Below, one piece after another: positions 8,579 to 46,772 of a stretch of DNA of 64,000 nucleotides (position 1 is the first letter of the stretch; each line of letters begins with the position of its first letter). The position numbers and the translations under genes were made by a program. The notes below the pieces were generated by a model that saw nothing but the letters and a program-made list of their open reading frames with translations, was not told the origin of the DNA and ran no database searches. The stretch is from the IMG/VR virus record IMGVR_UViG_3300046003_006038, positions 64,001-128,000 of that record; one strand, written 5' to 3'. Source of the DNA: a virus.

Positions 8579-8842
8579 TTATTTAATATTTTTTAATGGA
8601 TAAGCATTTATAATACTCTTCTTTTTTACTGACGGTCTCATATCAAATGCTCCTAATTCACCTTGTTTTATTTTTACCTTAGCTTGTTCACTAGCTTGTT
8701 TTAAAGCTGCTTCTACATGATATTTAGCAAATTCAATCATTGCTTTTTCGACATCTTTAGAAAAACATACCATTTCATTGTACTTATCATTATAAAAATG
8801 ACTAATTGTAAAACTACCTTGTAAAAAATTATATGCTGTCAT
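8579..8842 (-). CDS. Unknown 87-aa protein
   Basis: Starts MTAYNFLQGSFTISHFYNDK; the centre is a long helix (EKAMIEFAKYHVEAALKQAS). It is the first gene after the promoter at 8867-8897. Function unknown. Confidence 0.65.
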   Translation of the reverse strand: MTAYNFLQGSFTISHFYNDKYNEMVCFSKDVEKAMIEFAKYHVEAALKQASEQAKVKIKQGELGAFDMRPSVKKKSIINAYPLKNIK

Positions 8843-8866: not shown

Positions 8867-8897
8867 TAAATATACGAAAAAAGACTCACGTAAGCAA
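8867..8897 (-). promoter_or_regulatory. Bacteroidota-type promoter TTG-N20-TATATTTA inside a terminator
   Basis: TTG at 8897-8895, 20 bases, then TATATTTA at 8874-8867, upstream of the gene starting at 8842. The TTG is part of the hairpin that ends the previous transcript. Confidence 0.8.
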
Positions 8898-8910
8898 GCC
8901 TTTTTCTAAT
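8875..8910 (-). terminator. Hairpin terminator overlapping the promoter
   Basis: On the minus strand AAAAAGGCTTGC, loop TTAC, GTGAGTCTTTTTT: a stem with several wobbles, flanked by A-run and T-run. It directly follows the stop at 8915. Confidence 0.65.
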
Positions 8911-8914
8911 TATT

Positions 8915-9484
8915 TTACAAATATTTTTTCTTTAATATTACATCCCAATAACAAGTTGTGGTCTTAACTCCATCTACTGTAGAACTCCACACACATGGAA
9001 ACTTCTTTCTAGATTTTTTTATTCTTGTTTCAGGACTTCCTACTGTTTCTCTTGAATAATACAACCAGCATTCCCAGTAATGGTGAGGTTCTGTAGGAAC
9101 AAATGTTATTGCTATTTGATAACCAAAGAACACAAATGACCAAACTGGAGACCATTCAAATCTGTAGTCTGTATCTGTCCATTTTGTTTTCCAACCTAAA
9201 TCTACAAAATCAAATCCTATTTTTTTAGGAACTGATTTACTTCTTCTACTGTAATCGTAGAATAGTTTTTCAAATCCTATTTTTTTAGCATTTGGATTTT
9301 TTTCTAGTTCAGCTGTGGCTTTATCTATGGCTTCTTGAGTTGTGTACTTTCTCCATACTCTTGGTAAGAAATAAGGTGTACCAATAGCTGTTTTACCAAT
9401 ATATACTTTTGGGACTGGTGGTTTGAATGGAGAGAAGTAGACTTTCATCCATTCGAATTTTTTTAAAAAATATTTTAGTTTCAT
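8915..9484 (-). CDS. Unknown 189-aa protein rich in aromatic residues
   Basis: Starts MKLKYFLKKFEWMKVYFSPF. It has GKTAIGTPYFLPRVWRKYT and many Trp, Tyr, Phe and Lys residues. No clear membrane helix. Similar aromatic-rich proteins of unknown role are common in phage accessory regions. It ends at a terminator. Confidence 0.7.
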   Translation of the reverse strand: MKLKYFLKKFEWMKVYFSPFKPPVPKVYIGKTAIGTPYFLPRVWRKYTTQEAIDKATAELEKNPNAKKIGFEKLFYDYSRRSKSVPKKIGFDFVDLGWKTKWTDTDYRFEWSPVWSFVFFGYQIAITFVPTEPHHYWECWLYYSRETVGSPETRIKKSRKKFPCVWSSTVDGVKTTTCYWDVILKKKYL

Positions 9485-11374: not shown

Positions 11375-11447
11375 AACCTTTGTTTTAAATTTATACTTAA
11401 ATATACGAAATTAAATCCGAGTTTCCAAATTTTTCATTATAATTCTA
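11349..11447 (-). repeat. 99-bp direct repeat, copy 1 (promoter and SGNH 3' end relic)
   Basis: Matches 16490-16588 at 98 of 99 bases. It holds the start of the LPT-family gene, its leader and promoter, and upstream an out-of-place copy of the SGNH gene 3' end (codons for IIMKNLETRI and stop). Confidence 0.9.
11398..11428 (-). promoter_or_regulatory. Bacteroidota-type promoter TTG-N20-TATATTTA
   Basis: TTG at 11428-11426 and TATATTTA at 11405-11398, exactly 20 bases apart, 24 bases before the start codon of the LPT-family gene at 11374. Confidence 0.8.
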
Positions 11448-19447: not shown

Positions 19448-20011
19448 TTAATTGAATTTACTTTTTAAATCTTGTTTTTTAATAATCTGTTTCAATCTCT
19501 GAACATATGTTTTATCCTCAGCATAATTCTGTTTCAAATATTCAAAGTACTCTCCTTCAGTTTTAATATCTGAAAGATAGGTTGAATAGTATAGAGCGTA
19601 GTCGCAGACACAATCTTGCCATGAATCATAGTAGGCATGCTCTCTATTTGTACCTTTTGCTAAATTAGCTCTTAATTTAGCTTCTCTCATGCCGAACATG
19701 TTATTGTTCTCTAAAAAGATAGTTGATTTGAAATGACCTGATTCTAATTTAGCTTGTGCTAAGATAATGTGAGGGTATCTGAAATTTAATTGATCAATTT
19801 TTTCAATTAATTTCTGTTCTGAGAATTCATTGTATTCTCTAATCACAATTAGTTTATCTTCTGTTGTTAGATTTTGGATTGGATCAATAGGTTTTGATGT
19901 GAATCCTAACATTAGAATTAATCCTATAGTAGCTCCTATTCCTACTAATGTTTTACTCGTGACATTTACTTTTTCAGGTAATAATGTTTCTTTGTTGAAT
20001 TTGTAATACAT
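19448..20011 (-). CDS. Membrane-anchored glucosaminidase (GH73-like) endolysin candidate
   Basis: A hydrophobic segment at residues 21-37 (TLVGIGATIGLILMLGF) serves as signal anchor. After it come HIILAQAKLESGHFKSTIF (catalytic Glu at E90), NNNMFGMR and YDSWQDCVCDYALYYSTYL, the order of Flagellar J/LytG-type N-acetylglucosaminidases. The protein would cut peptidoglycan glycan strands from the periplasmic side, so it is a good endolysin candidate in this window. No holin is identified with certainty. Transcribed from the promoter at 20036-20066. Confidence 0.82.
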   Translation of the reverse strand: MYYKFNKETLLPEKVNVTSKTLVGIGATIGLILMLGFTSKPIDPIQNLTTEDKLIVIREYNEFSEQKLIEKIDQLNFRYPHIILAQAKLESGHFKSTIFLENNNMFGMREAKLRANLAKGTNREHAYYDSWQDCVCDYALYYSTYLSDIKTEGEYFEYLKQNYAEDKTYVQRLKQIIKKQDLKSKFN

Positions 20012-20035: not shown

Positions 20036-20066
20036 TAAATATATGAAAAAAAGCCTGCGTAAGCAA
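20036..20066 (-). promoter_or_regulatory. Promoter TTG-N20-TATATTTA fused to a terminator
   Basis: TTG at 20066-20064, TATATTTA at 20043-20036; drives the glucosaminidase gene. Confidence 0.8.
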
Positions 20067-20074
20067 GCTTTTTG
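20044..20074 (-). terminator. Hairpin terminator overlapping the promoter
   Basis: On the minus strand AAAAAGCTTGC, TTAC, GCAGGCTTTTTTT. The A-run of the stem touches the stop of the 28-aa gene. Confidence 0.7.
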
Positions 20075-21861: not shown

Positions 21862-22131
21862 TTATAGTTTTTGAAATGTTTTACCTGACTCCATAACAAT
21901 ATAGTACTTATTACTCGTATATAATGGCTGTACTCCTTGTACATATGATATAATAAAACCGTATAATTCGTACTCATCATCTGAGTGTACGTCAATATGT
22001 TCTTCTAAATAAGAATTATACGTTAATTTAAAGTTCTCAGGACTTTTGCTTTTTAATATGACTTTGTATAAGTCCCCTAAATAATAATTCTGCTCGTCAC
22101 CACTTGGGTGCAATACTCTTAATGTGTACAT
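21862..22131 (-). CDS. Unknown 89-aa protein
   Basis: Starts MYTLRVLHPSGDEQNYYLGD; acidic centre HIDVHSDDEYELYGF. Soluble. First gene after the promoter at 22196-22226. Function unknown. Confidence 0.65.
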   Translation of the reverse strand: MYTLRVLHPSGDEQNYYLGDLYKVILKSKSPENFKLTYNSYLEEHIDVHSDDEYELYGFIISYVQGVQPLYTSNKYYIVMESGKTFQKL

Positions 22132-22195
22132 ATGTGTATAAATTTATGTATATTGCCTACTCTATTCAGTTTTCAGCTTCCCTGTTTTTAATAAT

Positions 22196-22226
22196 TAAAT
22201 ATACGAAAAAAAGCCTGCGTAAGCAA
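22196..22226 (-). promoter_or_regulatory. Promoter TTG-N20-TATATTTA fused to a terminator
   Basis: TTG at 22226-22224 and TATATTTA at 22203-22196, directly after the HNH gene at 22239. Confidence 0.8.
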
Positions 22227-22236
22227 GCCTTTTTGT
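22204..22236 (-). terminator. Hairpin terminator overlapping the promoter
   Basis: Minus strand AAAAAGGCTTGC, TTAC, GCAGGCTTTTTTT; stem around GCTTGC/GCAGGC followed by seven T. Confidence 0.7.
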
Positions 22237-22238
22237 AA

Positions 22239-22916
22239 TTATTTTTCAGAATATTTCCAAATAAATCCTCCTGCGCTCTTTACCTTACCTTTACAACAAG
22301 CATTTATATTAGCTGCATCTATGTTTAATCTCCTAGAAGCTTCGGCTCCTGAGTTCCATGCTTGTAACAGTGTTCCTGCTTTACTGAATTGTGCTATCGG
22401 TTTTGTGTTCCTTTTATTCTTTTCAGATACATCTGGCCTCTTTACTCCCTTATTTCCGTTAGCAATTCCCTTATTCCAAGGTGCTTTCCCTTTAGCTGCC
22501 AGGTTAGGAACTCCTTTCAGTGGGCTTGGCCTACCTTTTAGCGGACTAGTCTTTCCTGTTAGTAGTTCTGCATTTGCTATACTTTTTTCTATTTTTAACC
22601 TCTCATATACCCTTGTGCTAACCTTATACAATCTCGACTGTGTTTTACTATGTCTAAAGACCATTTGCCAGGCAGCATGTTTTAACTTATATTCCTTAGG
22701 GTAAATTTCTACAAGAAGTAGGTGTGCTAAAAAATGCTCTCTCGCTGTTAGGAGCACTATGTTTGGATGCGTCCTCCATTGTGTTGTTTCACCTTCTCCT
22801 CCCATACATTTTGGAATGATGTGGTGTCTTTCGTAATAGGCTCCACTTTTTTCTTTTGTCCTGTTCTCTCTCTTTGCTCGATCAATTATTTGATCATAAA
22901 TTCTTTGGTAATTCAT
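22239..22916 (-). CDS. HNH homing endonuclease with structured RNA leader
   Basis: MNYQRIYDQIIDRAKRENRT, then YYERHHIIPKCMGG, VLLTAREHFLAHLLLVEIYP: an HNH nuclease core (HH...N/T...H). The middle is Lys/Pro-rich (KTSPLKGRPSPLKG, NKGIANGNKGVKRP; NUMOD3-like) and the end SGAEASRRLNIDAANINACC plus GGFIWKYSEK is a DNA-binding segment. The closest relative in the window is at 41471-42058, and both are preceded by the same unusual RNA element. The gene interrupts an operon between a phosphoesterase and an unknown gene, as homing genes do. Confidence 0.88.
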   Translation of the reverse strand: MNYQRIYDQIIDRAKRENRTKEKSGAYYERHHIIPKCMGGEGETTQWRTHPNIVLLTAREHFLAHLLLVEIYPKEYKLKHAAWQMVFRHSKTQSRLYKVSTRVYERLKIEKSIANAELLTGKTSPLKGRPSPLKGVPNLAAKGKAPWNKGIANGNKGVKRPDVSEKNKRNTKPIAQFSKAGTLLQAWNSGAEASRRLNIDAANINACCKGKVKSAGGFIWKYSEK

Positions 22917-23946: not shown

Positions 23947-24393
23947 CTACCCTACTATTTCAGTTAACATTGCTGTAATTACTGAGTATTGATTCATATA
24001 CTCGTCATATTCCTCTTTAGTGATCTTAATCATTTCTCTTAAATCTTCTTTAGAGAAACTATCATGAGTAGTGTTAGGTTTAAATGTTCTGTAGAATATA
24101 TCTCTTTCTGAAAATGATAATTTACTTCCTTTGGCATAATATACTAATGACCAGTCCGTACATCTTTCAGTTCGTGTTATCTCCTTTATATGATAAACGT
24201 TTAATGTTTTACCAAACATATGTTCTTTATCAATAACTTTTAAATATGTGTCAGCAAACTCTTCCTTAATTTGATTAAAATCGTCTACTTCTTTTTGTTC
24301 AGCAATACGTCTATCATTTTCAATTGCTTCTCTTAATTGAGCAATTGTTAAATTCTGATCATATTTTGCTATAATTTCTAATATTCTACTCAT
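23947..24393 (-). CDS. Unknown 148-aa protein
   Basis: Starts MSRILEIIAKYDQNLTIAQL. Charged, soluble; N-terminal helical and C-terminal helical parts flank a beta section (WSLVYYAKGSKLSFSERDIF). Function unknown. Confidence 0.65.
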   Translation of the reverse strand: MSRILEIIAKYDQNLTIAQLREAIENDRRIAEQKEVDDFNQIKEEFADTYLKVIDKEHMFGKTLNVYHIKEITRTERCTDWSLVYYAKGSKLSFSERDIFYRTFKPNTTHDSFSKEDLREMIKITKEEYDEYMNQYSVITAMLTEIVG

Positions 24394-24416: not shown

Positions 24417-24447
24417 TAAATATACGAATAAAAGCCTGCCGAAGCAA
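24417..24447 (-). promoter_or_regulatory. Promoter TTG-N20-TATATTTA fused to a terminator
   Basis: TTG at 24447-24445 and TATATTTA at 24424-24417, 24 bases before the gene starting at 24393. Confidence 0.8.
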
Positions 24448-24456
24448 GCTTTTTGT
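24425..24456 (-). terminator. Hairpin terminator overlapping the promoter
   Basis: Minus strand AAAAAGCTTGC, TTCG tetraloop, GCAGGCTTTTATT. It ends the transcript that contains the candidate RNA at 24481-24778. Confidence 0.7.
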
Positions 24457-26182: not shown

Positions 26183-26213
26183 TTAATATAAGAAGAAAGG
26201 TTCAGGTTTCCAA
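26183..26213 (-). promoter_or_regulatory. Promoter TTG-N20-TATATTAA fused to a hairpin
   Basis: TTG at 26213-26211 and TATATTAA at 26190-26183, 18 bases before the start at 26165. Confidence 0.75.
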
Positions 26214-26222
26214 ACCTTTCTC
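26193..26222 (-). terminator. Hairpin overlapping the promoter
   Basis: Minus strand GAAAGGTT, 10-base loop, AACCTTTC (8 bp perfect) followed by TTCTT. Weaker U-run than the other units, so termination is less sure. Confidence 0.5.
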
Positions 26223-26232
26223 CGAATATTTC

Positions 26233-26466: not shown

Positions 26467-26531
26467 AAGTTAGCTAACAGCTAACCTACATTGGAGTTGA
26501 AGGAATTGACCTCATATTGGATAAAATTTTG

Positions 26532-26605
26532 TGGTCCATGCAGGACTCGAACCTGCGACCTTCTCGTTATGAGCGAGCTGCTCTAACCGTCTGAGCTAAA
26601 AGACC
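26532..26605 (-). tRNA. tRNA-Met or tRNA-Ile2 (CAT)
   Basis: Cloverleaf with T-arm GCAGG-TTCGAGT-CCTGC and anticodon loop CTCATAA. No encoded CCA. Confidence 0.9.
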
Positions 26606-26710
26606 AAGTAAACTAAATGTGTTATAAGGCGATTGTGGTCACACTATATAAAGCAGCTTCTTCTTTGTACCCTCTGCAGTGGGTGTCTGGCACCGACATT
26701 TAGTTCTTTG

Positions 26711-26780
26711 TAGCGTAGCGTGGACTCGAACCACCCCCCAAGCTTATGAGACTTAGATGCAACCTTTACACTTTAACGCA
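26711..26780 (-). tRNA. tRNA with CAT anticodon, imperfect acceptor stem
   Basis: Anticodon loop CTCATAA on a TAAGT/GCTTG stem and a normal T-loop, but only four good acceptor pairs (GCGT/ACGC). May be decaying. Confidence 0.55.
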
Positions 26781-26789
26781 GTTTATAAG

Positions 26790-26861
26790 CGGCTCTAGAG
26801 GGAATCGAACCCTCGTCTCCTGGGCGACAACCAAGCATCCATACCACTGGACCATAGAGCC
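26790..26861 (-). tRNA. tRNA-Asp (GTC)
   Basis: Acceptor GGCTCTA/TAGAGCC, anticodon loop TTGTCGC, T-arm GAGGG-TTCGATT-CCCTC. Confidence 0.92.
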
Positions 26862-26917
26862 AAATTTACTTGTCTGTTCCAAGTTGTCAAACCTGTCAAG
26901 AGTCGGTTAAGCTTCAG

Positions 26918-26992
26918 TGGAGACAATGGGAATCGAACCCATCACAAAAACATTGCAAGTGTTTTTCGCCAAGCCTTGGTACATGTGCCCCC
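26918..26992 (-). tRNA. tRNA-Ala (TGC)
   Basis: Acceptor GGGGGCA/TGTCTCC, anticodon stem AAACA/TGTTT with loop CTTGCAA, canonical T-loop. Confidence 0.9.
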
Positions 26993-27104
26993 AATTTACC
27001 TGTCTATTCCAGGTTGTCAAGGTATTGTTATTACGAGTGTACCTTAACCTCGTGTTCACCTTTTTCACACCAGAGGTTGTGAACAATGGCCTTTCTGGTT
27101 TTGT

Positions 27105-27174
27105 ACTGCGTACGGGATTCGAACCCGTGCCTTATCATAGAAAGTGATACGTGTTTACCCCTTCACTAACGCAG
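27105..27174 (-). tRNA. tRNA-Glu (TTC)
   Basis: Acceptor CTGCGT/ACGCAG, anticodon loop CTTTCTA on TATCA/TGATA, T-arm ACGGG-TTCGAAT-CCCGT. Confidence 0.88.
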
Positions 27175-27226
27175 CAGATTGTGGGTATATGTTCATCACA
27201 TATTCTTGGGTTCCCACACACCCTTG

Positions 27227-27300
27227 AGCAATGTACCGGTCTCGAACCGGTCTTATTCCACATTGGAAGTGTGGTGCCATACCTACTAGGCGAACATTGC
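27227..27300 (-). tRNA. tRNA-Gly (TCC)
   Basis: Acceptor GCAATGT/ACATTGC, anticodon stem CCACA/TGTGG with loop CTTCCAA. Confidence 0.92.
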
Positions 27301-27385
27301 AATTGAAGATGAATCTCAGCCTTGTATACTGAATGGATCCTTTAATTTAATCACTAACCCTAGGTGTGATCGAATTCATCTTTTG

Positions 27386-27457
27386 AGCTTCTGCGAGGAA
27401 TCGAACCCCGTTTTCTTGAGTACAAATCAAGTACATTACCATTTATGTTTCAGAAGC
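27386..27457 (-). tRNA. tRNA-Thr (TGT)
   Basis: Acceptor GCTTCTG/CAGAAGC, anticodon stem CTTGA/TCAAG with loop TTTGTAC. Confidence 0.92.
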
Positions 27458-27463
27458 AAATTA

Positions 27464-27530
27464 ATTAGAGCCGGTTCTCGTATCCGTTCTGCAGGTTAGC
27501 CCCTGCTGCTTTACTATAAGCTAACTCTAA
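27464..27530 (-). tRNA. Abnormal tRNA-like gene, anticodon unclear
   Basis: Acceptor TTAGAG/CTCTAA and D-stem GCTT/AAGC pair well, but the D-loop (ATAGTA) has no GG, the T-loop (TACGAGA) is not TTCRA-type, and the anticodon loop GGCTAA has only six bases on GCAGG/CCTGC. Either a degenerate gene or an unusual tRNA. Confidence 0.5.
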
Positions 27531-27535
27531 TTTTG

Positions 27536-27611
27536 TACACCTGGTGGGAGTCGAACCCACAAAATCTTCTGATCCTAAGTCAGACGGCTTTTCCTGTTTG
27601 CCCACAGGTGC
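27536..27611 (-). tRNA. tRNA-Leu-like (TAG), short variable loop
   Basis: Anticodon stem TCTGA/TCAGA with loop CTTAGGA, T-arm GTGGG-TTCGACT-CCCAC. The variable loop is only about seven bases, unlike normal bacterial tRNA-Leu. Confidence 0.85.
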
Positions 27612-27654
27612 AATTTATTTTATCTAATACTTCAATGATCTTATTTCTATACTA

Positions 27655-27685
27655 TAAAGATACGGACTTTATTTCTTTATAGCAA
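27655..27685 (-). promoter_or_regulatory. tRNA-array promoter TTG-N20-TATCTTTA
   Basis: TTG at 27685-27683, TATCTTTA at 27662-27655, just upstream of the tRNA run 27611-26532. Confidence 0.8.
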
Positions 27686-27716
27686 CTTTTTTTCAATTTT
27701 TTTTAATCTTTTTTTG

Positions 27717-27788
27717 AGGTCCTCCAGAGAATCGAACTCTGAATCCTACGGTTTGCAATCGTGGAGCTTTACCATCAGCCTGAGGACC
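27717..27788 (-). tRNA. tRNA-Cys (GCA)
   Basis: Acceptor GGTCCTC/GAGGACC, anticodon loop TTGCAAA, T-arm CAGAG-TTCGATT-CTCTG. Confidence 0.88.
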
Positions 27789-28062
27789 ATTAAAACACAC
27801 ATCCATCAAGATTGGGATAACTTCATACTACACCCCCATTACGAGGATACCCTCACTACTTCAAACAGCCCATTCTGCACTTTATATATTGAGCCTAAGT
27901 AGTTACTCTATTATTCTTCATTATCATACTCAACAAACATAACACCTCTTGATAGTGTTGTAATAATAATCAATATGTTACTAAGTTAGTTACCACTTTT
28001 TACTAAAGTTTTGAACTTTATATTACTTATTTGTCTTTCTATGTGCGCTTATTTCTTATACT
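27789..28062 (-). other. Leader region with no gene seen
   Basis: About 270 bases between the promoter at 28063-28093 and tRNA-Cys. AT-rich, with stops in all frames I checked and no clear tRNA. Probably an untranslated leader or decayed tRNA sequence. Confidence 0.4.
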
Positions 28063-28093
28063 TAAATATACGAACTTTATTTCGTTTCTGCAA
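28063..28093 (-). promoter_or_regulatory. Promoter TTG-N20-TATATTTA
   Basis: TTG at 28093-28091, TATATTTA at 28070-28063; directly follows the HNH gene stop at 28094. Confidence 0.8.
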
Positions 28094-28600
28094 CTAAAAG
28101 AATAAAAATGTTTCCCATTCTTTAGGAATATCTTGAACCTGTCTTAGTAACATTAAATAATGTGGTCGTTTAGGTTCTGGGATGTCTTTTCCATATTCTT
28201 CTAATGTTAAATCTGCTTTTTCATGATTACATGTTCTACAAGCTGTAACTAAATTATCCCATGAATCTTTTCCTCCTTTTGATTGAGGAATGACATGATC
28301 CAATGTTAGTGTTCTTTGATTTGAACTACCACAGTAAACACATTCGTAATTATCTCTCTTATAGACATTTTCTCTATTTAGAGGTACTTTGTGAATATTT
28401 TGTTTAACATAACTAAATACTCTAATGATAGAAGGTTTAAAAATTTCCAATTTTGGATTTACTAAACCAAATGTTTCTGGATGTTCAGCTATTACTTCTG
28501 CATTACCTTTGTAAGAAATCACAAATGCTCTTTCTACTGGTATGATACTTCTGGCGATAAAGCTCGAATCCACTACTAGTGCTTTTTGATACTTACTCAT
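28094..28600 (-). CDS. HNH endonuclease within the tRNA array
   Basis: C-terminal half: YKRDNYECVYCGSSNQRTLT, then LDHVIPQSKGGKDSWDNLVT and ACRTCNHEKAD. These are the zinc CxxC pairs and the D-H-V-I-P...N...H active site of McrA-like HNH nucleases. The N-terminal half (KALVVDSSFIARSIIPVERA) is typical of a free-standing family widely found in Bacteroidota chromosomes. Unlike the other endonuclease genes it has no TATTTATAATAAA motif upstream, so it may be a resident gene rather than a homing one. Confidence 0.88.
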   Translation of the reverse strand: MSKYQKALVVDSSFIARSIIPVERAFVISYKGNAEVIAEHPETFGLVNPKLEIFKPSIIRVFSYVKQNIHKVPLNRENVYKRDNYECVYCGSSNQRTLTLDHVIPQSKGGKDSWDNLVTACRTCNHEKADLTLEEYGKDIPEPKRPHYLMLLRQVQDIPKEWETFLFF

Positions 28601-28633
28601 GATTTACTTTTTTTAATGAAACAATATATTTTG

Positions 28634-28704
28634 TGGAGTATTTGGGACTCGAACCCAGGCCTTGCAGCGTCTACTGCCTGCACATCCACTTGTGCTTTTA
28701 CCCC
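28634..28704 (-). tRNA. Abnormal tRNA-like gene, 6-base anticodon loop
   Basis: Acceptor GGGGTAA/ATACTCC (with G-U), D-arm GCAC-AAGTGGAT-GTGC and a TTCGAGT T-loop are fine, but the anticodon stem GCAG/CTGC encloses only TAGACG. The decoding identity cannot be read. Confidence 0.55.
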
Positions 28705-28775
28705 AATTTCTTCAGGAGAAACTGGTAAGGGGTAACCTAACGGAATTTAATCCTTACTTTGTTCTCCGTCTTCTG

Positions 28776-28846
28776 CGCGAACCCGAGGAATCGAACCTCG
28801 CCATGACAGTTTTGGAGACCGCACCGACACCTTGTCTGTGGAACGC
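28776..28846 (-). tRNA. tRNA-Trp (CCA)
   Basis: Anticodon stem GCGGT/ACTGT with loop CTCCAAA, T-arm CGAGG-TTCGATT-CCTCG. Two T-T mismatches in the acceptor. Anticodon CCA means it does not read TGA. Confidence 0.82.
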
Positions 28847-28934
28847 ATTTGTGGGTAGGATCAGTTGCGCATCTGCCTACCGAGACCATCAATTTAAAAT
28901 AAGACTTCATATTTCAGTGATCAATGACACCTTG

Positions 28935-29006
28935 AACCCATACCTGGACTCGAACCAGGACTGAAACGTTAGAAGCGTTTAGTTCTTCCGATTAAACTAT
29001 ACGGGC
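28935..29006 (-). tRNA. tRNA-Arg (TCT)
   Basis: Acceptor GCCCGTA/TATGGGT, anticodon stem AAACG/CGTTT with loop CTTCTAA. Confidence 0.92.
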
Positions 29007-29011
29007 AGTTG

Positions 29012-29083
29012 AGGTCTTAGTAGGAGTCGAACCTACGTTCTATCGTTCGTAGCGATAAGTTTTTCCAATTAAACTATAAGACC
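29012..29083 (-). tRNA. tRNA-Arg (ACG)
   Basis: Acceptor GGTCTTA/TAAGACC, loop CTACGAA. The 5' half is close to the neighbouring tRNA-Arg (TCT), suggesting duplication. Confidence 0.92.
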
Positions 29084-29089
29084 AATTGT

Positions 29090-29160
29090 ATCCCTGACTG
29101 GAGTCGAACCAGCAGCTTACGAGGCTTAAACTCGTTGTGTTTACCATTTCACCACAGGGA
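29090..29160 (-). tRNA. tRNA-Leu-like (TAA), short variable loop
   Basis: Anticodon stem ACGAG/CTCGT with loop TTTAAGC; variable loop about five bases instead of the long arm usual for Leu. Confidence 0.85.
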
Positions 29161-29167
29161 TGTTTTT

Positions 29168-29240
29168 GGGTGTAAGGACGGTACCGCCCCGTCTTCTCAA
29201 GATTCACAGTCTTGCACTTCACTAAAAAGCTTCGAACACC
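29168..29240 (-). tRNA. tRNA-His-like (GTG) without normal T-loop
   Basis: Anticodon stem CAAGA/TCTTG with loop CTGTGAA; acceptor GGTGT/ACACC. The T-stem GACGG/CCGTC closes GGCGGTA instead of TTCRANN, and the D-loop lacks a GG. Confidence 0.7.
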
Positions 29241-29246
29241 ATATTG

Positions 29247-29316
29247 TACCGACTCCAGGTTATGCTCCTGGCTGAGAATACTTATGAGATATCCTCGATC
29301 ACTAGATCAAGTCGGC
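29247..29316 (-). tRNA. tRNA-Met-like (CAT) without normal D- and T-loops
   Basis: Acceptor GCCGACT/AGTCGGT perfect; anticodon loop CTCATAA; T-stem CCAGG/CCTGG closes AGCATAA; D-stem GATC/GATC closes TAGT. Confidence 0.7.
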
Positions 29317-29446
29317 AGTTGATAGGGAACCCCTTAACCTATCGTTGTACTATATGATTTTAAAGTGTCTTACCACGGGCCCCGTTCGTACTTTCATCTC
29401 CTGTGTTCCTTAAACACGTTGTGAGGACGGTGAAGAGGTTTTTTTG

Positions 29447-29531
29447 AGGAAAGAATCAGAATCGAACTGAATCCGGTTACCCGAACGCCTCGCTTAGCAG
29501 GCGGACTCAACACCATGTTGATTTACTTTCC
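29447..29531 (-). tRNA. tRNA-Ser (GCT)
   Basis: 85 nt with the long variable arm of Ser (CGGG-TAA-CCGG type), anticodon loop CTGCTAA, acceptor GGAAAGT/TTCTTTCC. Confidence 0.85.
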
Positions 29532-29537
29532 ATTTTG

Positions 29538-29609
29538 TACTCCTAGGAAGAATTGAACTTCCATTTCATCCTTATCAGAGATGTGTGCTAACCATTCTAC
29601 TATAGGAGC
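29538..29609 (-). tRNA. tRNA-Ile (GAT)
   Basis: Acceptor GCTCCTA/TAGGAGT, anticodon stem CATCT/GGATG with loop CTGATAA. Confidence 0.9.
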
Positions 29610-29617
29610 AATTTTTG

Positions 29618-29691
29618 CTGATCTGACAGGACTCGAACCTGCTATCCTAGGTTTAACAAACCTCCGCTGTATACCACTTAAGCTTCAGATC
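29618..29691 (-). tRNA. tRNA-Asn (GTT)
   Basis: Acceptor TGATCTG/CAGATCA, loop TTGTTAA on AGGT/ACCT, T-arm GCAGG-TTCGAGT-CCTGT. Confidence 0.92.
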
Positions 29692-29700
29692 AATTTATTG

Positions 29701-29774
29701 TGGACCCTGTAGGAATCGAACCTACTCCTCTAGTTCTTCAGACTAGCGTACGCACCAGCTATACAAAAGGTCCC
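29701..29774 (-). tRNA. tRNA-Phe (GAA)
   Basis: Anticodon stem CTAGT/ACTAG with loop CTGAAGA, T-arm GTAGG-TTCGATT-CCTAC; one mismatch in the acceptor. Confidence 0.9.
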
Positions 29775-29804
29775 AGTGAGCGTTACTTTCTATTTATACT
29801 AATA

Positions 29805-29842
29805 AGTCCTGCTGGACCTATATGGGGTTTCAACCCATACCT
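29805..29842 (-). pseudogene. 3' remnant of a tRNA gene
   Basis: Minus strand ATGGG-TTGAAAC-CCCAT followed by ATAGGTCCA looks like a T-arm plus acceptor 3' strand. No matching 5' half is found, because tRNA-Tyr lies directly upstream. Confidence 0.55.
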
Positions 29843-29852
29843 CTCCTTTCAG

Positions 29853-29935
29853 TGGGATACTGTGGAATCGAACCACACGCTTCTTAGGGCAACGATTTTA
29901 CAGACCGCTTATCACACCAGTGACTGAAGCATCCC
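29853..29935 (-). tRNA. tRNA-Tyr (GTA)
   Basis: 83 nt with a long variable arm, anticodon loop CTGTAAA on CGGT/ATCG, T-arm TGTGG-TTCGATT-CCACA. Confidence 0.9.
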
Positions 29936-29938
29936 AAT

Positions 29939-30583
29939 TTATTTTATTTTTCGACCTAATCTCCATCCTTCTGGGATTGTGTCTCCTTTGGGTATTTTTT
30001 TATTTCCTATCTCATTTGTAATCCAACAAGTCCCATATTGAGAATTAGTAACTCCTGTACCTGCGTGCTTATGAGATTGTTTCATTTTTTCAATAGAATC
30101 TTGAGTATGTCTTCTTCCTGCCCAATGTCCTTTATTCATATTCTCTCTACTACCTTCTCTATACTCTTTTTTTCTCTGTTCTCGAATTACCTCAGTAAGG
30201 TATTTTCTAAACTCTTGATTTTTCCATTTTTCCTGCATATAGCTCTTTGCAGCTATCTTTCCTTTTTCTCTTACTTCTTCAGACCATCCTCCCGAACCTC
30301 CTTGTTTTAAATTTAAACAGTTTGGATTTTTTAAATCCTGTTCTGTTATTAAATTAATTTCAGCTCGAACTAATTCTTCTCTTGAATCAAATTGCTCTAG
30401 TATTTCAAACTTAAAATTGTCTCTACCGTATTTATTTAGTTCGTAGTATAGTCTTTTACCACTTCCTAAATAACCATCATCTATACGGTTAGTTGAATGC
30501 ATTCCCAGGTAATACCTGCCGTTTATAAGATTTGTTGTCTTATATGTGAAATGAAATCTCTTATTCTCTTTGATGTTAGCCAT
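29939..30583 (-). CDS. GIY-YIG homing endonuclease inserted in the tRNA array
   Basis: FHFTYKTTNLINGRYYLGMH is the GIY-YIG block in a form typical of phage Seg/Hef-type enzymes, followed by YLGSGKRLYYELNKYGRDNF, FEILEQFDSREELVRAE and NCLNLKQGGSGGW. The C-terminal GTCWITNEIGNKKIPKGDTI is a common DNA-binding tail in these enzymes. It sits between tRNA-Tyr and tRNA-Val. Confidence 0.92.
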   Translation of the reverse strand: MANIKENKRFHFTYKTTNLINGRYYLGMHSTNRIDDGYLGSGKRLYYELNKYGRDNFKFEILEQFDSREELVRAEINLITEQDLKNPNCLNLKQGGSGGWSEEVREKGKIAAKSYMQEKWKNQEFRKYLTEVIREQRKKEYREGSRENMNKGHWAGRRHTQDSIEKMKQSHKHAGTGVTNSQYGTCWITNEIGNKKIPKGDTIPEGWRLGRKIK

Positions 30584-30596
30584 ATCTATTCTTTAT

Positions 30597-30604
30597 TATA
30601 AATA
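30597..30604 (-). promoter_or_regulatory. Late-promoter-like TATTTATAATAAA motif
   Basis: GCCTATTTATAATAAAG, 13 bases before the GIY-YIG start codon. Confidence 0.5.
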
Positions 30605-30629
30605 GGCTAACTTTTCAAAAAGTCTACAG

Positions 30630-30700
30630 TACCTCGTGATAGAATCGAACTATCGCCATTTGCATGTAAAACAAATACGCTACCATTACGCCAACGAGGC
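30630..30700 (-). tRNA. tRNA-Val (TAC)
   Basis: Acceptor GCCTCGT/ACGAGGT, anticodon stem TTTGT/GCAAA with loop TTTACAT. Confidence 0.9.
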
Positions 30701-30708
30701 AATTTTTG

Positions 30709-30780
30709 TACCCCCACCAAGAATCGAACTTGGATTCCTATATTAAAAGTATAGTACTTTAGCCGTTAAGTTATAGGGGC
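30709..30780 (-). tRNA. tRNA-Lys (TTT)
   Basis: Acceptor GCCCCTA/TGGGGGT, anticodon stem CTATA/TATAG with loop CTTTTAA. Confidence 0.92.
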
Positions 30781-30785
30781 AATTT

Positions 30786-30863
30786 GTCTGATAGGCAAGA
30801 TTCGAACTTGCGTGCTCTGCGGTCCAAGTGCAGCGAGATAAACCGGACTCCTCTACTACCAGA
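30786..30863 (-). tRNA. tRNA-Pro (TGG)
   Basis: Acceptor TCTGGTA/TATCAGA, loop CTTGGAC on CTGC/GCAG, T-arm GCAAG-TTCGAAT-CTTGC. Confidence 0.9.
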
Positions 30864-30871
30864 AATTATTG

Positions 30872-30944
30872 ATGGCTTATCGGGATTCGAACCCAAACTA
30901 AAACAGTCAAAGTGTTTTGTGCTAACCGTTACACTATAAGCCAA
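30872..30944 (-). tRNA. tRNA-Gln (TTG)
   Basis: Acceptor TGGCTTA/TAAGCCA, anticodon stem AAACA/TGTTT with loop CTTTGAC. Confidence 0.92.
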
Positions 30945-30950
30945 TGTTGC

Positions 30951-31033
30951 GGAAGAGACAGGATTCGAACCTGCAACCCGAATACACGGGCGACGATTTT
31001 CAAGACCGCTTGACAACCGCTGTCCACTCTTCC
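30951..31033 (-). tRNA. tRNA-Ser (TGA)
   Basis: 83 nt with long variable arm, anticodon loop CTTGAAA, acceptor GGAAGAG/CTCTTCC, canonical T-loop. Confidence 0.92.
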
Positions 31034-31085
31034 TTTTTACTTTATCTCAATATGTCAATGAACTCTTATTCTTTATTTCAATACT

Positions 31086-31116
31086 TAAAGATACAATCTT
31101 TATTTCTTTCTAGCAA
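31086..31116 (-). promoter_or_regulatory. tRNA-array promoter TTG-N20-TATCTTTA
   Basis: TTG at 31116-31114, TATCTTTA at 31093-31086, about 50 bases before tRNA-Ser. Nearly the same sequence as the promoter at 27655. Confidence 0.8.
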
Positions 31117-31129
31117 CTTTTTTTTAATT

Positions 31130-31170
31130 TATTTTAAAAAAAAACTCGAATCTTTTTTATTTGATCCGAG
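31130..31170 (-). terminator. Strong intrinsic terminator
   Basis: Minus strand CTCGGATC, 10-base loop, GATTCGAG, then nine T. It ends the small unit at 31207-31353 before the tRNA promoter. Confidence 0.8.
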
Positions 31171-31206
31171 CTTCTTATTAGAATTTATATGTTATAATTT
31201 CTTATA

Positions 31207-31353
31207 TCATACCTCGGTACCTCCTTGTTTCGGTTCGTTATTATATGCGCTAAAGCCCATAATCACATCACCACATAATATCTGCGACCACGTATTAAGT
31301 GCTCTACTCATTATTGTAGTTAAATCTTGATGTATGTTTTTTATTGCTTTCAT
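31207..31353 (-). CDS. Unknown 48-aa protein in its own transcription unit
   Basis: Starts MKAIKNIHQDLTTIMSRALN and ends KQGGTEV. Small, basic N-terminus. A promoter at 31373, a second one at 31455 and the terminator at 31130-31170 frame it, which is better support than its length gives. Function unknown. Confidence 0.6.
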   Translation of the reverse strand: MKAIKNIHQDLTTIMSRALNTWSQILCGDVIMGFSAYNNEPKQGGTEV

Positions 31354-31372
31354 TTTACTTTTGTTCTATATA

Positions 31373-31403
31373 TAAATATACTACTTTTTTAATTCCAAGA
31401 CAA
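31373..31403 (-). promoter_or_regulatory. Promoter TTG-N20-TATATTTA
   Basis: TTG at 31403-31401, TATATTTA at 31380-31373, 20 bases before the 48-aa gene. Confidence 0.8.
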
Positions 31404-31454
31404 CAGTCTATTGAATTTATTTTAAATTATTTTTATTTGTGTTTTTATATATTA

Positions 31455-31485
31455 TAAATATACGAACTTTTATTTTAAAAAACAA
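31455..31485 (-). promoter_or_regulatory. Promoter TTG-N20-TATATTTA within an inverted repeat
   Basis: TTG at 31485-31483, TATATTTA at 31462-31455. The TTG box overlaps the left inverted repeat arm. Confidence 0.75.
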
Positions 31486-31498
31486 CTACTGTTCTTTG
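31484..31498. repeat. 15-bp inverted repeat, left arm
   Basis: AACTACTGTTCTTTG, perfectly inverted at 31836-31850, flanking one gene. Confidence 0.85.
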
Positions 31499-31505
31499 GA
31501 TTAAT

Positions 31506-31817
31506 TTATCCTTTTATTAATTTTTTTTTCTTAACTGGCTCACATCCATCACTATTAATTGATGTAAGTTTCTGTTCTAATTTATCTACTCTGGAGTCTG
31601 TGTGTCTTAGACATTCTCTGTAGATTTGATCTACTCTGTCGATTTCTTGATCTATTCTACGATTTACAGATTGATCATTTTGATGAATCCAATCTTGGTT
31701 TCCTGAGATTGCTTTTTCAAGTTCTCTTACTTTGCTTGCTGTCTTAAACGCTACCACAACCCCCCATCCAAGGAGAGCTATACCAACACCTAAAACAAAT
31801 GCTAAAATTTGTTCCAT
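31506..31817 (-). CDS. Membrane-anchored coiled-coil protein, 103 aa
   Basis: Residues 3-23 (QILAFVLGVGIALLGWGVVV) form one membrane helix; the rest (RRIDQEIDRVDQIYRECLRH, SRVDKLEQKL) is a coiled coil with a Lys-rich end. The shape recalls small spanin-like or superinfection-exclusion proteins, but no motif proves it. Enclosed by a perfect 15-bp inverted repeat. Confidence 0.7.
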   Translation of the reverse strand: MEQILAFVLGVGIALLGWGVVVAFKTASKVRELEKAISGNQDWIHQNDQSVNRRIDQEIDRVDQIYRECLRHTDSRVDKLEQKLTSINSDGCEPVKKKKLIKG

Positions 31818-31835
31818 AATTTATAATTTTTATTT

Positions 31836-31850
31836 CAAAGAACAGTAGTT
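31836..31850. repeat. 15-bp inverted repeat, right arm
   Basis: CAAAGAACAGTAGTT, reverse complement of 31484-31498. Confidence 0.85.
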
Positions 31851-31857
31851 TAATTTG

Positions 31858-31961
31858 TAGTCAGGACAGGATTCGAACCTGTAAGCCTTTGCACGTTACC
31901 CCACGTCTACCGGCTATTCAATCGGAGGTAATTTAGCGTATCCCAATTCCGCCACCTGACT
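31858..31961 (-). tRNA. tRNA-like RNA, class II body with over-long centre, copy 1
   Basis: Acceptor AGTCAGG/CCTGACT, D-arm GCGGAATTGGGATACGC and T-arm ACAGG-TTCGAAT-CCTGT are canonical. The 52 bases between D- and T-arm, about 20 more than in a normal tRNA-Leu or Ser, do not form a clear anticodon arm. Confidence 0.55.
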
Positions 31962-32019
31962 ATATACTTGTCTTTCCAAGTTGTCATCAATTCCATGTCT
32001 AAGTCTATTGAGAACCTTG

Positions 32020-32124
32020 TAGTCAGGGCAGGATTCGAACCTGCACAACTTGTTTGTCTGTTGGAACAAGTAATCCCAATGGTTGCGACCCATACACTGC
32101 GTTTACCAATTTCGCCACCTGACT
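32020..32124 (-). tRNA. tRNA-like RNA, class II body with over-long centre, copy 2
   Basis: Same acceptor stem as copy 1 and nearly the same D- and T-arms. The centre has a small hairpin ATGG-GTCGCAA-CCAT and a strong ACTTGTT/AACAAGT arm. If the first is the anticodon arm, the anticodon would be CGC, odd for a Leu/Ser-type body. Confidence 0.55.
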
Positions 32125-32157
32125 ATTTGCAATTAATGCAAGAGAATATGTAACAAT

Positions 32158-32460
32158 TTAGCACCCTCTTTCTTATCAACAGCATCGGTTGACATAGCTA
32201 TCCAAAGAGTAGGGTCACGTAGGATTGGGTCTTTAATATTTTAGATGTTACTTTCTGACCATCACTACTTGCTGAGACCTCATTTGTGTTGTTAGGGGTC
32301 AGGGTCTTATGCTATCGCAGACACTTTGTTTTTCTTCACACCTACTCCACATTCCTTTCTCAAGGGAACAACACATCTACCATTACTGATAGTATCTTTA
32401 TGTAAATTATTTTGTTCTCAATTGAACTTATTTTTTATTGAGGTACTCTTCCTCACTTCT
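32158..32460 (-). pseudogene. Possible decayed coding sequence
   Basis: Readable peptides occur in successive frames, for example NLHKDTISNGRCVVPLRKEC, then NEVSASSDGQKVTSKIL, then KDPILRDPTLWIAMSTDAVD, separated by stops and frame changes. The pattern suggests an old frameshifted gene between two tRNA-like genes, but chance is possible. Confidence 0.3.
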
Positions 32461-32497
32461 GACATTTACAAAGGTATTCAATGTTTAACCTTAATTT

Positions 32498-32587
32498 GGA
32501 GTCGATACGGGATTTGAACCCGTATCTCGAGGCAGCCTCGATGTTACCCTAATGGTGGTATTTATTCCCACTTACACCAATCGACTC
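32498..32587 (-). tRNA. tRNA-like RNA without a recognisable anticodon arm
   Basis: An 8-bp acceptor GAGTCGAT/ATCGACTC, T-arm ACGGG-TTCAAAT-CCCGT, a D-stem GGTG/CACC and a perfect CGAGG-CTG-CCTCG arm are visible. Only TTAGGGTAA remains where the anticodon arm should be. Confidence 0.5.
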
Positions 32588-35807: not shown

Positions 35808-35838
35808 GTAATATATGAAAAAAAGCTTACCGAAGCAA
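35808..35838 (-). promoter_or_regulatory. Promoter TTG-N20-TATATTAC fused to a terminator
   Basis: TTG at 35838-35836, last box at 35815-35808; 6 bases before the start at 35802, so the transcript would be nearly leaderless. Confidence 0.7.
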
Positions 35839-35849
35839 GCTTTTTTTTA
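35816..35849 (-). terminator. Hairpin terminator overlapping the promoter
   Basis: Minus strand AAAAAAAAGCTTGC, TTCG, GTAAGCTTTTTTT: perfect GCTTGC/GTAAGC-type stem, tetraloop, U-run. It ends the nrd operon. Confidence 0.8.
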
Positions 35850-35850
35850 A

Positions 35851-36330
35851 CTATTTTTCATATACTTCAGCTTTATTTGAATCTACAGCAATTTCGTGAA
35901 AAACTACTCGCCCTTGTTCAATTGCCTTTTTTATATTCTTCTGTTTTGTAGATAGGGAAGAACTTCCACTTTTTACTTCAATAAAGTGTACTTCACATTT
36001 TGTTTTGCTGTCTGTGTGAGTGAATCCCACATAGTCAATTGGCATTCCGATAAACACCACATCTTCAGGTGGTAGTGGAAATTTTGTCATGAAAGGAACA
36101 AAATGTTCTATGCTCTTTCCCCAATTTACTGCTGAAGATCTGAATGTTGAGTCTTTCCTTACTTTTGCTTTTTCGATAATGTGAGCAGCTGCCGTTTCTT
36201 CAATCTGTTTTTTTAGCTGTGTTACCTCATGCACATATTCTCTTAGTTTTACAGTTAGTAAAAAAATTACGCTTGCTAGAAATAGTGAAATAATTAATAG
36301 TGTCATATTTTTAATTTTTTTATCCGTCAC
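35851..36330 (-). CDS. PD-(D/E)XK nuclease of the Holliday-junction-resolvase-related family
   Basis: N-terminal membrane helix (residues 9-27, MTLLIISLFLASVIFLLTV), a charged linker helix, then SSAVNWGKSIEHFVPFM, FIGMPIDYVGFT, HFIEVKSGSSSLSTKQKNIK. The Asp of PIDYVGF and Glu-x-Lys of IEVKSG are the nuclease active site. The order fits a family annotated as endonuclease related to archaeal Holliday junction resolvase. Overlaps the nrdA stop by 11 bases; a later ATG at 36306 is possible. Membrane tethering of a nuclease suggests a job at the cell envelope, or DNA processing there. Confidence 0.8.
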   Translation of the reverse strand: MTDKKIKNMTLLIISLFLASVIFLLTVKLREYVHEVTQLKKQIEETAAAHIIEKAKVRKDSTFRSSAVNWGKSIEHFVPFMTKFPLPPEDVVFIGMPIDYVGFTHTDSKTKCEVHFIEVKSGSSSLSTKQKNIKKAIEQGRVVFHEIAVDSNKAEVYEK

Positions 36331-43256: not shown

Positions 43257-44108
43257 TTAGTTGAATAAATCGTCAAATTTAGAAACTGTACTCTTGTTCC
43301 CTGCTGTTGCATTCTCTAGAGTGAAATCTGTTTTATTACTCCCCAAGGTTTTGTCTAAGTCAGTTTCCTCTGCTTGTACTGGTGCTGGTGCGACTGGTGC
43401 GATTGATTCTGCTGCTACTGGAGCCGGAGATGTTACTTCTTCTCCTGGGTTAAGGTACTCCTGTAATTTTTTCTTAATGAAGTCATAATCGTATTGAGTT
43501 TGTACTTCTAAAGCATTTGGTTGTTCTTTTAGCCATAAATCAACTTGCGTGTTATCGTCTGATAAAGCGGTTTGTTTAGGTTTAATACGAACTGTAGTAG
43601 TCGGGAATTGACCTGGTCCTGCTGCTGGTGTAGTTTCAACAACCATGTCCCATCCATTAATTACATCTGTAAAGTCCCCAATATCTTCATCCTCTGCTAA
43701 AGCCAATAATGCTTTATAGATGTTGATACCGAATGACCAAAGACGTACTCCTTTATCTTCTTCACCTCTTACAATAACAGGTGCAAAATATCTTGATTTA
43801 GGAGATAACTTTCCAGATAATGACCAGTTGTCTTTATCAGAAGTCTTTCTTAATTCTTTTACAAATTCTTCGATTGGATCTTGTTTGCCGTAATTCGACA
43901 ATGACATCATAGGGAACTTCCCGATGTTGTAGTGCAGTTTCAATTCTGTGAAAGGATCTGCAGCATTAAAAGCTGAAGGTACAATTCTAATTGTTGATTT
44001 TCCGTTTGCAGGTCTCCAGTAGATCTTATCGAAGTCTACTTTCTCACGGTCTTGATTTCCGGTGCTGTTTAGAGCGGCCAGTTTTGCTTTAATAGCATTA
44101 ATGTCCAT
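43257..44108 (-). CDS. gp32-like single-stranded DNA-binding protein
   Basis: Starts MDINAIKAKLAALNS. FDKIYWRPANGKSTIRIVPS and KSRYFAPVIVRGEEDKGVRL are the OB-fold strands typical of T4-like gp32; the linker is Ala/Pro-rich (SPAPVAAESIAPVAPAPVQA), and the acidic C-terminal tip KFDDLFN is the protein-interaction tail. No zinc Cys cluster is seen, unlike T4 gp32. Transcribed from the promoter at 44143-44173 together with uvsX. Confidence 0.88.
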   Translation of the reverse strand: MDINAIKAKLAALNSTGNQDREKVDFDKIYWRPANGKSTIRIVPSAFNAADPFTELKLHYNIGKFPMMSLSNYGKQDPIEEFVKELRKTSDKDNWSLSGKLSPKSRYFAPVIVRGEEDKGVRLWSFGINIYKALLALAEDEDIGDFTDVINGWDMVVETTPAAGPGQFPTTTVRIKPKQTALSDDNTQVDLWLKEQPNALEVQTQYDYDFIKKKLQEYLNPGEEVTSPAPVAAESIAPVAPAPVQAEETDLDKTLGSNKTDFTLENATAGNKSTVSKFDDLFN

Positions 44109-44142: not shown

Positions 44143-44173
44143 ATAATATATGAAAAAAGTTGCAATAATACAA
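44143..44173 (-). promoter_or_regulatory. Promoter TTG-N20-TATATTAT
   Basis: TTG at 44173-44171 and last box at 44150-44143, 35 bases before the SSB start. Confidence 0.75.
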
Positions 44174-44629
44174 CTATAATTCTATAATTCTGAATAATTT
44201 TGTGTTGACTCTTTTTAGTTCTGCACCTTTTGTAAGTAGTATACAGTTTTGGTAGTCATTCCAATTCACTTTGTAGTTTGTATCTAAAATTCCTCCATTT
44301 AAGGACTCGATTAGACGGTTCAGTGAATTAATTGTGTATAGTGTATTTGATTCCTTCTTTCTATGTACTAGTATAGTATTTTCTAAGAAATTAGAAACGT
44401 TTCCAAATTCTACGTTATATGTACAGATATATTCATCTTGGCTCTTTGAATAAAGAACGAAAATTTTGTTATAAATGATCTTATACTTGTTCTGTATTGT
44501 ACTTAAAATCTCCTCTAACTGCTGTTCTGAAGAAAAAGTACAAAATAACTTGTTGCTCATGTCGGCTGCATTAAAATTGTATTCGATATCGTAATCGAAC
44601 ATTACTGGCGTTACATTATTCTGTATCAT
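44174..44629 (-). CDS. Unknown 151-aa protein
   Basis: Starts MIQNNVTPVMFDYDIEYNFN. Mixed alpha/beta, contains SNKLFCTFSSEQQLEEIL and LNRLIESLNGGILDTNYK. Location between polymerase and SSB suggests a replication or regulatory role, but no motif supports it. Confidence 0.7.
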   Translation of the reverse strand: MIQNNVTPVMFDYDIEYNFNAADMSNKLFCTFSSEQQLEEILSTIQNKYKIIYNKIFVLYSKSQDEYICTYNVEFGNVSNFLENTILVHRKKESNTLYTINSLNRLIESLNGGILDTNYKVNWNDYQNCILLTKGAELKRVNTKLFRIIEL

Positions 44630-46714: not shown

Positions 46715-46731
46715 TTTCTATAACCTTTTAT

Positions 46732-46762
46732 ATAATATAAGAAAAAAAGCCTGCATAAGCAA
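46732..46762 (-). promoter_or_regulatory. Promoter TTG-N20-TATATTAT fused to a terminator
   Basis: TTG at 46762-46760 and last box at 46739-46732, 17 bases before the polymerase start. Confidence 0.75.
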
Positions 46763-46772
46763 GCCTTCTTTT
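46740..46772 (-). terminator. Hairpin terminator overlapping the promoter
   Basis: Minus strand AGAAGGCTTGC, TTAT, GCAGGCTTTTTTT; ends the structural transcript after 46771. Confidence 0.75.

Follow-up and report, generated by a model that had tools for sequence, protein, structure and literature searches.

The window, the whole 64,000-nucleotide stretch of DNA analyzed here, comprises bases 64001-128000 of the 167,382-bp virus record IMGVR_UViG_3300046003_006038; the complete record is labelled G000. The closest annotated relatives of G000 are the Flavobacterium phages immuto (Immutovirus; host Flavobacterium sp. LMO8), with 88% identity in patches. According to the ORF list, the tRNAs and the skew, transcription of the window runs on the minus strand; hence all units described below read leftwards. 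About 20 tRNA genes are clustered at window positions 26531-32586 (minus strand), and immuto 3-5A is annotated with four only.

A first-pass annotation of this DNA had named seven sites with a hairpin, a T-run and a TTG exactly 20 bases before a promoter box. Read directly, all seven are present on the minus strand: at each of them a hairpin and a T-run are followed by TATATT, and the TTG lies within the stem, in the 5' arm of the hairpin. The first base of the TTG, read leftwards, is found at positions 8897, 20066, 22226, 24447, 26213, 35838 and 46762, and exactly 20 nt separate it from the box, which is TATATTTA, TATATTAA, TATATTAC or TATATTAT at all seven sites. RNA folding of the seven hairpins yields -12.6 to -18.0 kcal/mol (z of -4.5 to -6.1 against shuffles). 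An eighth and weaker unit at 44.2 kb (-6.4 kcal/mol), which precedes a gp32-like ssDNA-binding gene, had not been listed. The fused units of the window are the following:

8867..8910, minus strand: fused unit at 8.9 kb; hairpin 8877-8906, TTG 8895-8897, -7 box TATATTTA 8867-8874; between ORFs 8915-9484 and 8579-8842
20036..20073, minus strand: fused unit at 20.0 kb; hairpin 20048-20073, TTG 20064-20066, TATATTTA 20036-20043; upstream of the glucosaminidase-domain ORF 19448-20011
22196..22234, minus strand: fused unit at 22.2 kb; hairpin 22207-22234, TTG 22224-22226, TATATTTA 22196-22203; after the I-HmuI-like endonuclease ORF 22239-22916 and before the DUF805b RNA
24417..24453, minus strand: fused unit at 24.4 kb; hairpin with UUCG loop 24430-24453, TTG 24445-24447, TATATTTA 24417-24424; upstream of ORF 23947-24393
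26183..26223, minus strand: fused unit at 26.2 kb; hairpin of other sequence and with weaker T-run 26192-26223, TTG 26211-26213, TATATTAA 26183-26190
35808..35847, minus strand: fused unit at 35.8 kb; hairpin with UUCG loop 35818-35847, TTG 35836-35838, TATATTAC 35808-35815; after the Holliday-resolvase-related ORF 35851-36330
44143..44175, minus strand: weaker fused unit at 44.2 kb; hairpin of 7 bp 44158-44175, TTG 44171-44173, TATATTAT 44143-44150; upstream of the gp32-like ssDNA-binding gene 43257-44108
46732..46771, minus strand: fused unit at 46.7 kb; hairpin 46742-46771, TTG 46760-46762, TATATTAT 46732-46739; upstream of the DNA polymerase A ORF 45389-46714; junction used in the covariation test

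The sites had been described as one module, GCTTGC/GCAGGC followed by T7. Hairpin and register are indeed common to all of them, but the arms differ at 8.9 kb (GGCTTGC/GTGAGTC), at 35.8 kb (GCTTGC/GTAAGC) and at 26.2 kb, where GGTTTGG/CTGAACC is unrelated to the other sites and the TTG is still in the stem, in the same register. The predicted terminator strength differs among the units as well: the 24.4-kb unit has an interrupted T-run (TTTTATTC), the 26.2-kb unit a weak one (TTTCTTC), and the 44.2-kb unit a short stem. A second unit class has a UUCG-loop hairpin of the type GTTGCCTC-UUCG-GAGGCAA and occurs in G000 at about 62.0 kb and at 10.8 kb, and in immuto at 33278 and 67918; here the TTG is located at the stem base, 7 nt ahead of the loop, and the T-run is weaker. 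Next to the 22.2-kb unit, an Rfam DUF805b cis-regulatory RNA is predicted at 22154-22186 (minus strand; 38.8 bits, cut-off 35.6), starting about 10 nt past the -7 box; the 89-aa ORF that follows this RNA (21862-22131) has no Pfam match.

The promoter half resembles the primary-sigma promoters of Bacteroidota, for which the consensus -33 TTTG / -7 TAnnTTTG has been reported (PMC6847099, PMC2483708): two elements, a -33 TTG and a TA-rich -7 box (TAnnTT) that starts 20 nt after the TTG, are found at fixed spacing upstream of genes. When the -7 boxes TATATTTA, TATATTAA and TATATTAT (TATATTTA/TATATTAW) are counted over the whole of G000, 45 of the 83 that lie on its coding strand are preceded by a TTG at spacer 20, compared with 0-4 at each of the remaining spacers between 10 and 30 nt; on the opposite strand the spacer-20 TTG is seen in one of 53 boxes. 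The corresponding count for the coding strand of immuto is 35 of 82. In both genomes a spacer of exactly 20 is almost fixed, and 19 and 21 are hardly seen. Among 55 strict G000 promoters, 43 lack a hairpin and keep spacer and TTG nonetheless; because most spacer-20 promoters do without the hairpin, the TTG belongs to the promoter irrespective of any terminator. The -7 box of F. psychrophilum spans -12 to -5 (PMC9723704), which places the phage TTG at -35 to -33. Promoters of F. johnsoniae have a weak -33 motif and almost always a G at -5 (TAHHTTTG; PMC6847099). The phage promoters differ from these in both respects: the TTG is far more strongly conserved, and the boxes of G000 and immuto (TATATTTA/TATATTAW) lack the near-invariant G at -5 that marks the primary-sigma -7 box of Bacteroidota, so that we can only assume that the host sigma factor recognizes them. 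A search of the phage record for a sigma-70 region 2 gene gave no match.

In its other half, each unit looks like an ordinary intrinsic terminator of Flavobacterium, i.e. a stable, G-C-containing hairpin with a directly adjoining U-run after a gene. The units are mostly situated 0-35 nt past a stop codon and about 34-67 nt ahead of an ATG. Since the hairpin lies upstream of the start of its own promoter, only the upstream transcript can contain it. When the coding strand of G000 was scanned without regard to promoters, 25 terminator-like hairpins came up. Eleven of them are fused, with a promoter TTG in the stem whose first base generally precedes the start of the loop by 4 nt. For immuto, 8 of 25 or 9 of 26 such hairpins are fused, depending on the scan version; the immuto units include those at 22069, 25898, 46457, 64455 and 160319. 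The same scan of 800 kb of one Flavobacterium chromosome, used as a host control, returned only two fused cases among 351, both with a spacer of 21; a phage-type TTG/-7 pair with the TTG in the stem is thus what sets the units apart from ordinary Flavobacterium terminators. The fused arrangement is not the general terminator type of phage or host.

Conversely, a hairpin covers the TTG in 12 of the 55 strict G000 promoters, compared with a shuffled mean of 1.8 and maximum of 5 (200 shuffles). The figures for immuto are 7 of 42 (shuffled mean 1.2, maximum 4), and those for early-type promoters of viral contigs 16 of 166 (shuffled mean 2.9, maximum 7). Chance overlap is ruled out by the shuffles, the spacer histogram and the host chromosome control.

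The junction at 46.7 kb allows the two halves to be compared across relatives, which were fetched by homology of the DNA polymerase A protein and not by hairpin. The alignment consists of 34 distinct junctions; two with an inserted gene and a distant hairpin-less group were left out. A set of 28 units selected by their hairpin was kept out of the covariation test, because such selection makes the test circular. TTG, T6 and TATATT are invariant in all 34 junctions, and the arm and loop sequences vary. Across the 9-bp stem, 94.8% of the cells are paired (shuffled mean 90.9%) and the covariation score is 0.270 (0.202 in shuffles); neither value was reached in any of 500 shuffles. When the structure is slid as a control, pairing amounts to at most 63%. 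The three TTG columns are unchanged on the 5' side in the 34 sequences and vary in their 3' partners (UG to UA, GC to GU), whereas other stem pairs vary on both sides, e.g. GC, CG and AU three bases before the TTG. Because the shuffle control leaves shared ancestry in, it is this asymmetry, together with the slid-structure control, that carries the argument: a promoter constraint freezes one arm and a pairing constraint pulls the other along, hence the one-sided variation of the TTG pairs and the compensatory changes. We regard the pattern as the signature of a single sequence of about 45 bp under two constraints, pairing and promoter. The earlier claim that a terminator-like hairpin shares one piece of this length with the -33 TTG of the promoter that follows is therefore borne out, as the comparative data place both constraints on the same bases.

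Distant homologues of the junction (about 61-64% identity) have kept the promoter elements and have no hairpin; termination at the DNA polymerase junction therefore appears dispensable. Two loci have an inserted ORF that separates the DNA polymerase gene from its upstream neighbour (L056, 9021-9995; L071, 8642-10001); judged by its sequence, this ORF reads as a GIY-YIG-type endonuclease. L056 has retained the fused unit upstream of the inserted ORF; the replacement promoter of its polymerase gene takes the TTG from the last codons of that ORF and has no hairpin.

It had been suggested that the module is copied around the genome, and near-identical units do occur beside genes that differ between relatives. 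However, the 103 distinct fused units from G000, immuto and the fetched loci have 84 distinct 37-bp cores, and the diversity of the hairpin arms points to much vertical descent or re-evolution in place instead of recent copying. With these diverse arms, 78 of the 103 units have the same distance of 4 nt from the first base of the TTG to the start of the loop. G000 and L151 have in common the 303-aa gene that precedes the 24.4-kb unit, and 43 bp of the unit itself are identical; the two genes that come after it in G000 are missing from L151. Elsewhere, G000 has the order 278-aa gene, unit, 226-aa gene, unit, and L134 the order 278-aa gene, unit, 58-aa gene; of the two G000 copies it is the second that the L134 unit matches, which is what recombination between them would produce. 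G000, L134 and immuto also have one identical unit core, which is flanked by different genes in each. The cases in which near-identical units flank gene differences (G000/L151, G000/L134/immuto and G000/L114) are examples and not a breakpoint statistic. From them we infer that recombination at the cassettes may have made the gene differences; conservation of the cassette sequence across contexts could partly be due to selection on function instead of recombination.

The distribution beyond these relatives appears to be narrow. At least 119 distinct sites of the form TTG-N11-C-T6-NN-TAnnTTTG exist in bacterial and archaeal genomes, and among the matches listed two have hairpins, no more than in shuffled sequence (expectation 0.94, maximum 4). 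A general cellular arrangement is ruled out on this count; the fused geometry, judged by the matches listed, is therefore not a common cellular device. In viral contigs, 116 distinct T6-NN-TATATTTA sites show a TTG peak at spacer 20 (11 sites), with a hairpin in five of the 11. Most loci with fused units have proteins in common with the immuto group, and with five hairpins only, a wide spread over unrelated viruses was rejected as well. Locus L294 (3% covered; no similar phage record) may be an exception outside the immuto group. A DNA similarity search with the module against annotated phages gave weak matches, none of them in a Flavobacterium phage among the matches listed, and no description of fused units in Flavobacterium phages was found in the open-licence literature.

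The novelty that the first-pass annotation saw in the arrangement, for these phages, is not supported in full: composite terminator-promoter cassettes are known from T4-like phages, and it is the interlocking that differs. PMC4503421, citing Arbiol 2010 and Comeau 2014, describes PeSLs (promoter early stem-loop) as cassettes composed of a promoter and a stem-loop, through which genes are reportedly shuffled. Our units are like them in combining a stem-loop terminator and a promoter, in being repeated between small genes, and in standing beside gene gains and losses. Hairpin, T-run and TTG-N20-TATATT, all of predicted activity, are joined in one intergenic cassette at seven sites of the window (eight with the weaker unit). 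PeSLs have a tandem order, with an early sigma-70 promoter (TTGACA/TATAAT) after the stem-loop; here the promoter element is part of the stem and of the Bacteroidota type. In about 99 kb of phage RB49 that we scanned, terminator and TTGACA/TATAAT promoter follow each other in tandem, and 17-34 nt lie between the final G-C pair of the stem and the start of the -35 element. The present units depart from this RB49 layout: their stem contains the -33 element, and the 3' arm and T-run occupy the spacer. One exception was noticed in RB49 (L453) at about 3.2 kb, between genes: a 13-bp hairpin has a sigma-70 -10 TATAAT as its loop and a T-rich stretch behind it, and judged by sequence this is another, predicted, overlapping arrangement. 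Short inverted repeats that recur across a phage genome are also known from Cluster O mycobacteriophages, where recombination between copies of short palindromic repeats leads to indels (PMC4351075). These repeats differ from the fused units: their arms are invariant, many of them are intragenic, neither a T-run nor a common -33 register is described for them, and they are not terminator-promoter composites. The best reading of the units is that they are overlapping, PeSL-like terminator-promoter cassettes.

We think it quite probable that the units have a real dual function, with terminator and promoter overlapping, and we infer from the sequence that the hairpin terminates and the promoter fires. 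According to this model, RNA from the upstream gene would fold into a hairpin of 7-14 bp followed by U's, and the host RNA polymerase would stop; the same 5' arm, as double-stranded DNA, would offer the -33 TTG, with the -7 box starting 20 nt later, and polymerase would start the next gene about 14-20 nt past the stop point. Such a cassette would insulate a phage gene or operon from the next in minimal length. Gene blocks bordered by short cassettes of nearly the same sequence could recombine at them, as at PeSLs, and would thus be exchangeable. Given the general footprint size of RNA polymerase, an enzyme halted in the T-run spans the adjoining promoter; the unit could thus either occlude or feed the next promoter.

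The latter leads to a more specific proposal, to which we give little weight: the polymerase that ends in the T-run would stay over about -33 to +5 of the next promoter, re-initiate, and so couple neighbouring operons. E. coli RNA polymerase in vitro remains on the DNA after termination, slides, and re-initiates at nearby promoters (PMC6978380), and a sense promoter near an intrinsic terminator has been proposed as a mechanism of gene coupling (PMC6978322); in all units the stop and start points are about 14-20 nt apart. This support, however, comes from the E. coli enzyme, which slides over hundreds of base pairs, making so close an overlap unnecessary, and the 43 of 55 G000 promoters without hairpin argue that such coupling is not general. 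Hand-off and simple insulation are not separated by any evidence here.

Somewhat less credible still is that the hairpin acts as a regulatory site in DNA or RNA (an operator, an RNase site, or a switch relieved by a phage factor) and that the T-run is incidental. An operator would conserve sequence and not pairing, but in the 34 DNA polymerase junctions T6 is invariant and arms and loop vary, and the location of most units after stop codons is likewise against a regulatory site; the weak T-runs of some units (at 26.2 kb, and in the UUCG class ending AATTTCC) and the coexistence of promoters with and without hairpin would fit it. We consider it very improbable that the overlap is a coincidence of compaction, i.e. 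that terminator and promoter evolved separately in a gap of about 60 bp and came to overlap for want of space. Intergenic gaps in phages are short, and some relatives have the promoter without the hairpin; yet terminators elsewhere in the genome have no promoter TTG, and co-adaptation is required, even where a pressure to compact drives the process, for the TTG to keep a single register across so many different arms (78 of 103 units).

If the dual-function reading holds, a large family of environmental Flavobacterium phages has one stretch of about 45 bp constrained both as RNA, by pairing, and as DNA, by the promoter. The fused units would mark operon borders in immutovirus-like genomes and are likely exchange points. 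They provide a natural substrate for asking whether a terminating polymerase passes directly to the next promoter, a question that arises from single-molecule work on E. coli RNA polymerase; were the hand-off true, one polymerase would be passed along the phage operons, stopping and restarting at each border. In Bacteroidota genetics, the units could serve as compact insulator-promoter parts.

Besides the fused units, the window contains identical hairpin-less promoter cassettes of about 60 bp at 11.4 and 16.5 kb (TTG at 11428 and 16569, minus strand), which are likely a recent duplication within the genome. A recurrent AAAGGTTAT(G) is found right before many start codons, e.g. at 46715-46731 (minus strand), and this leader is conserved among relatives at the DNA polymerase junction.
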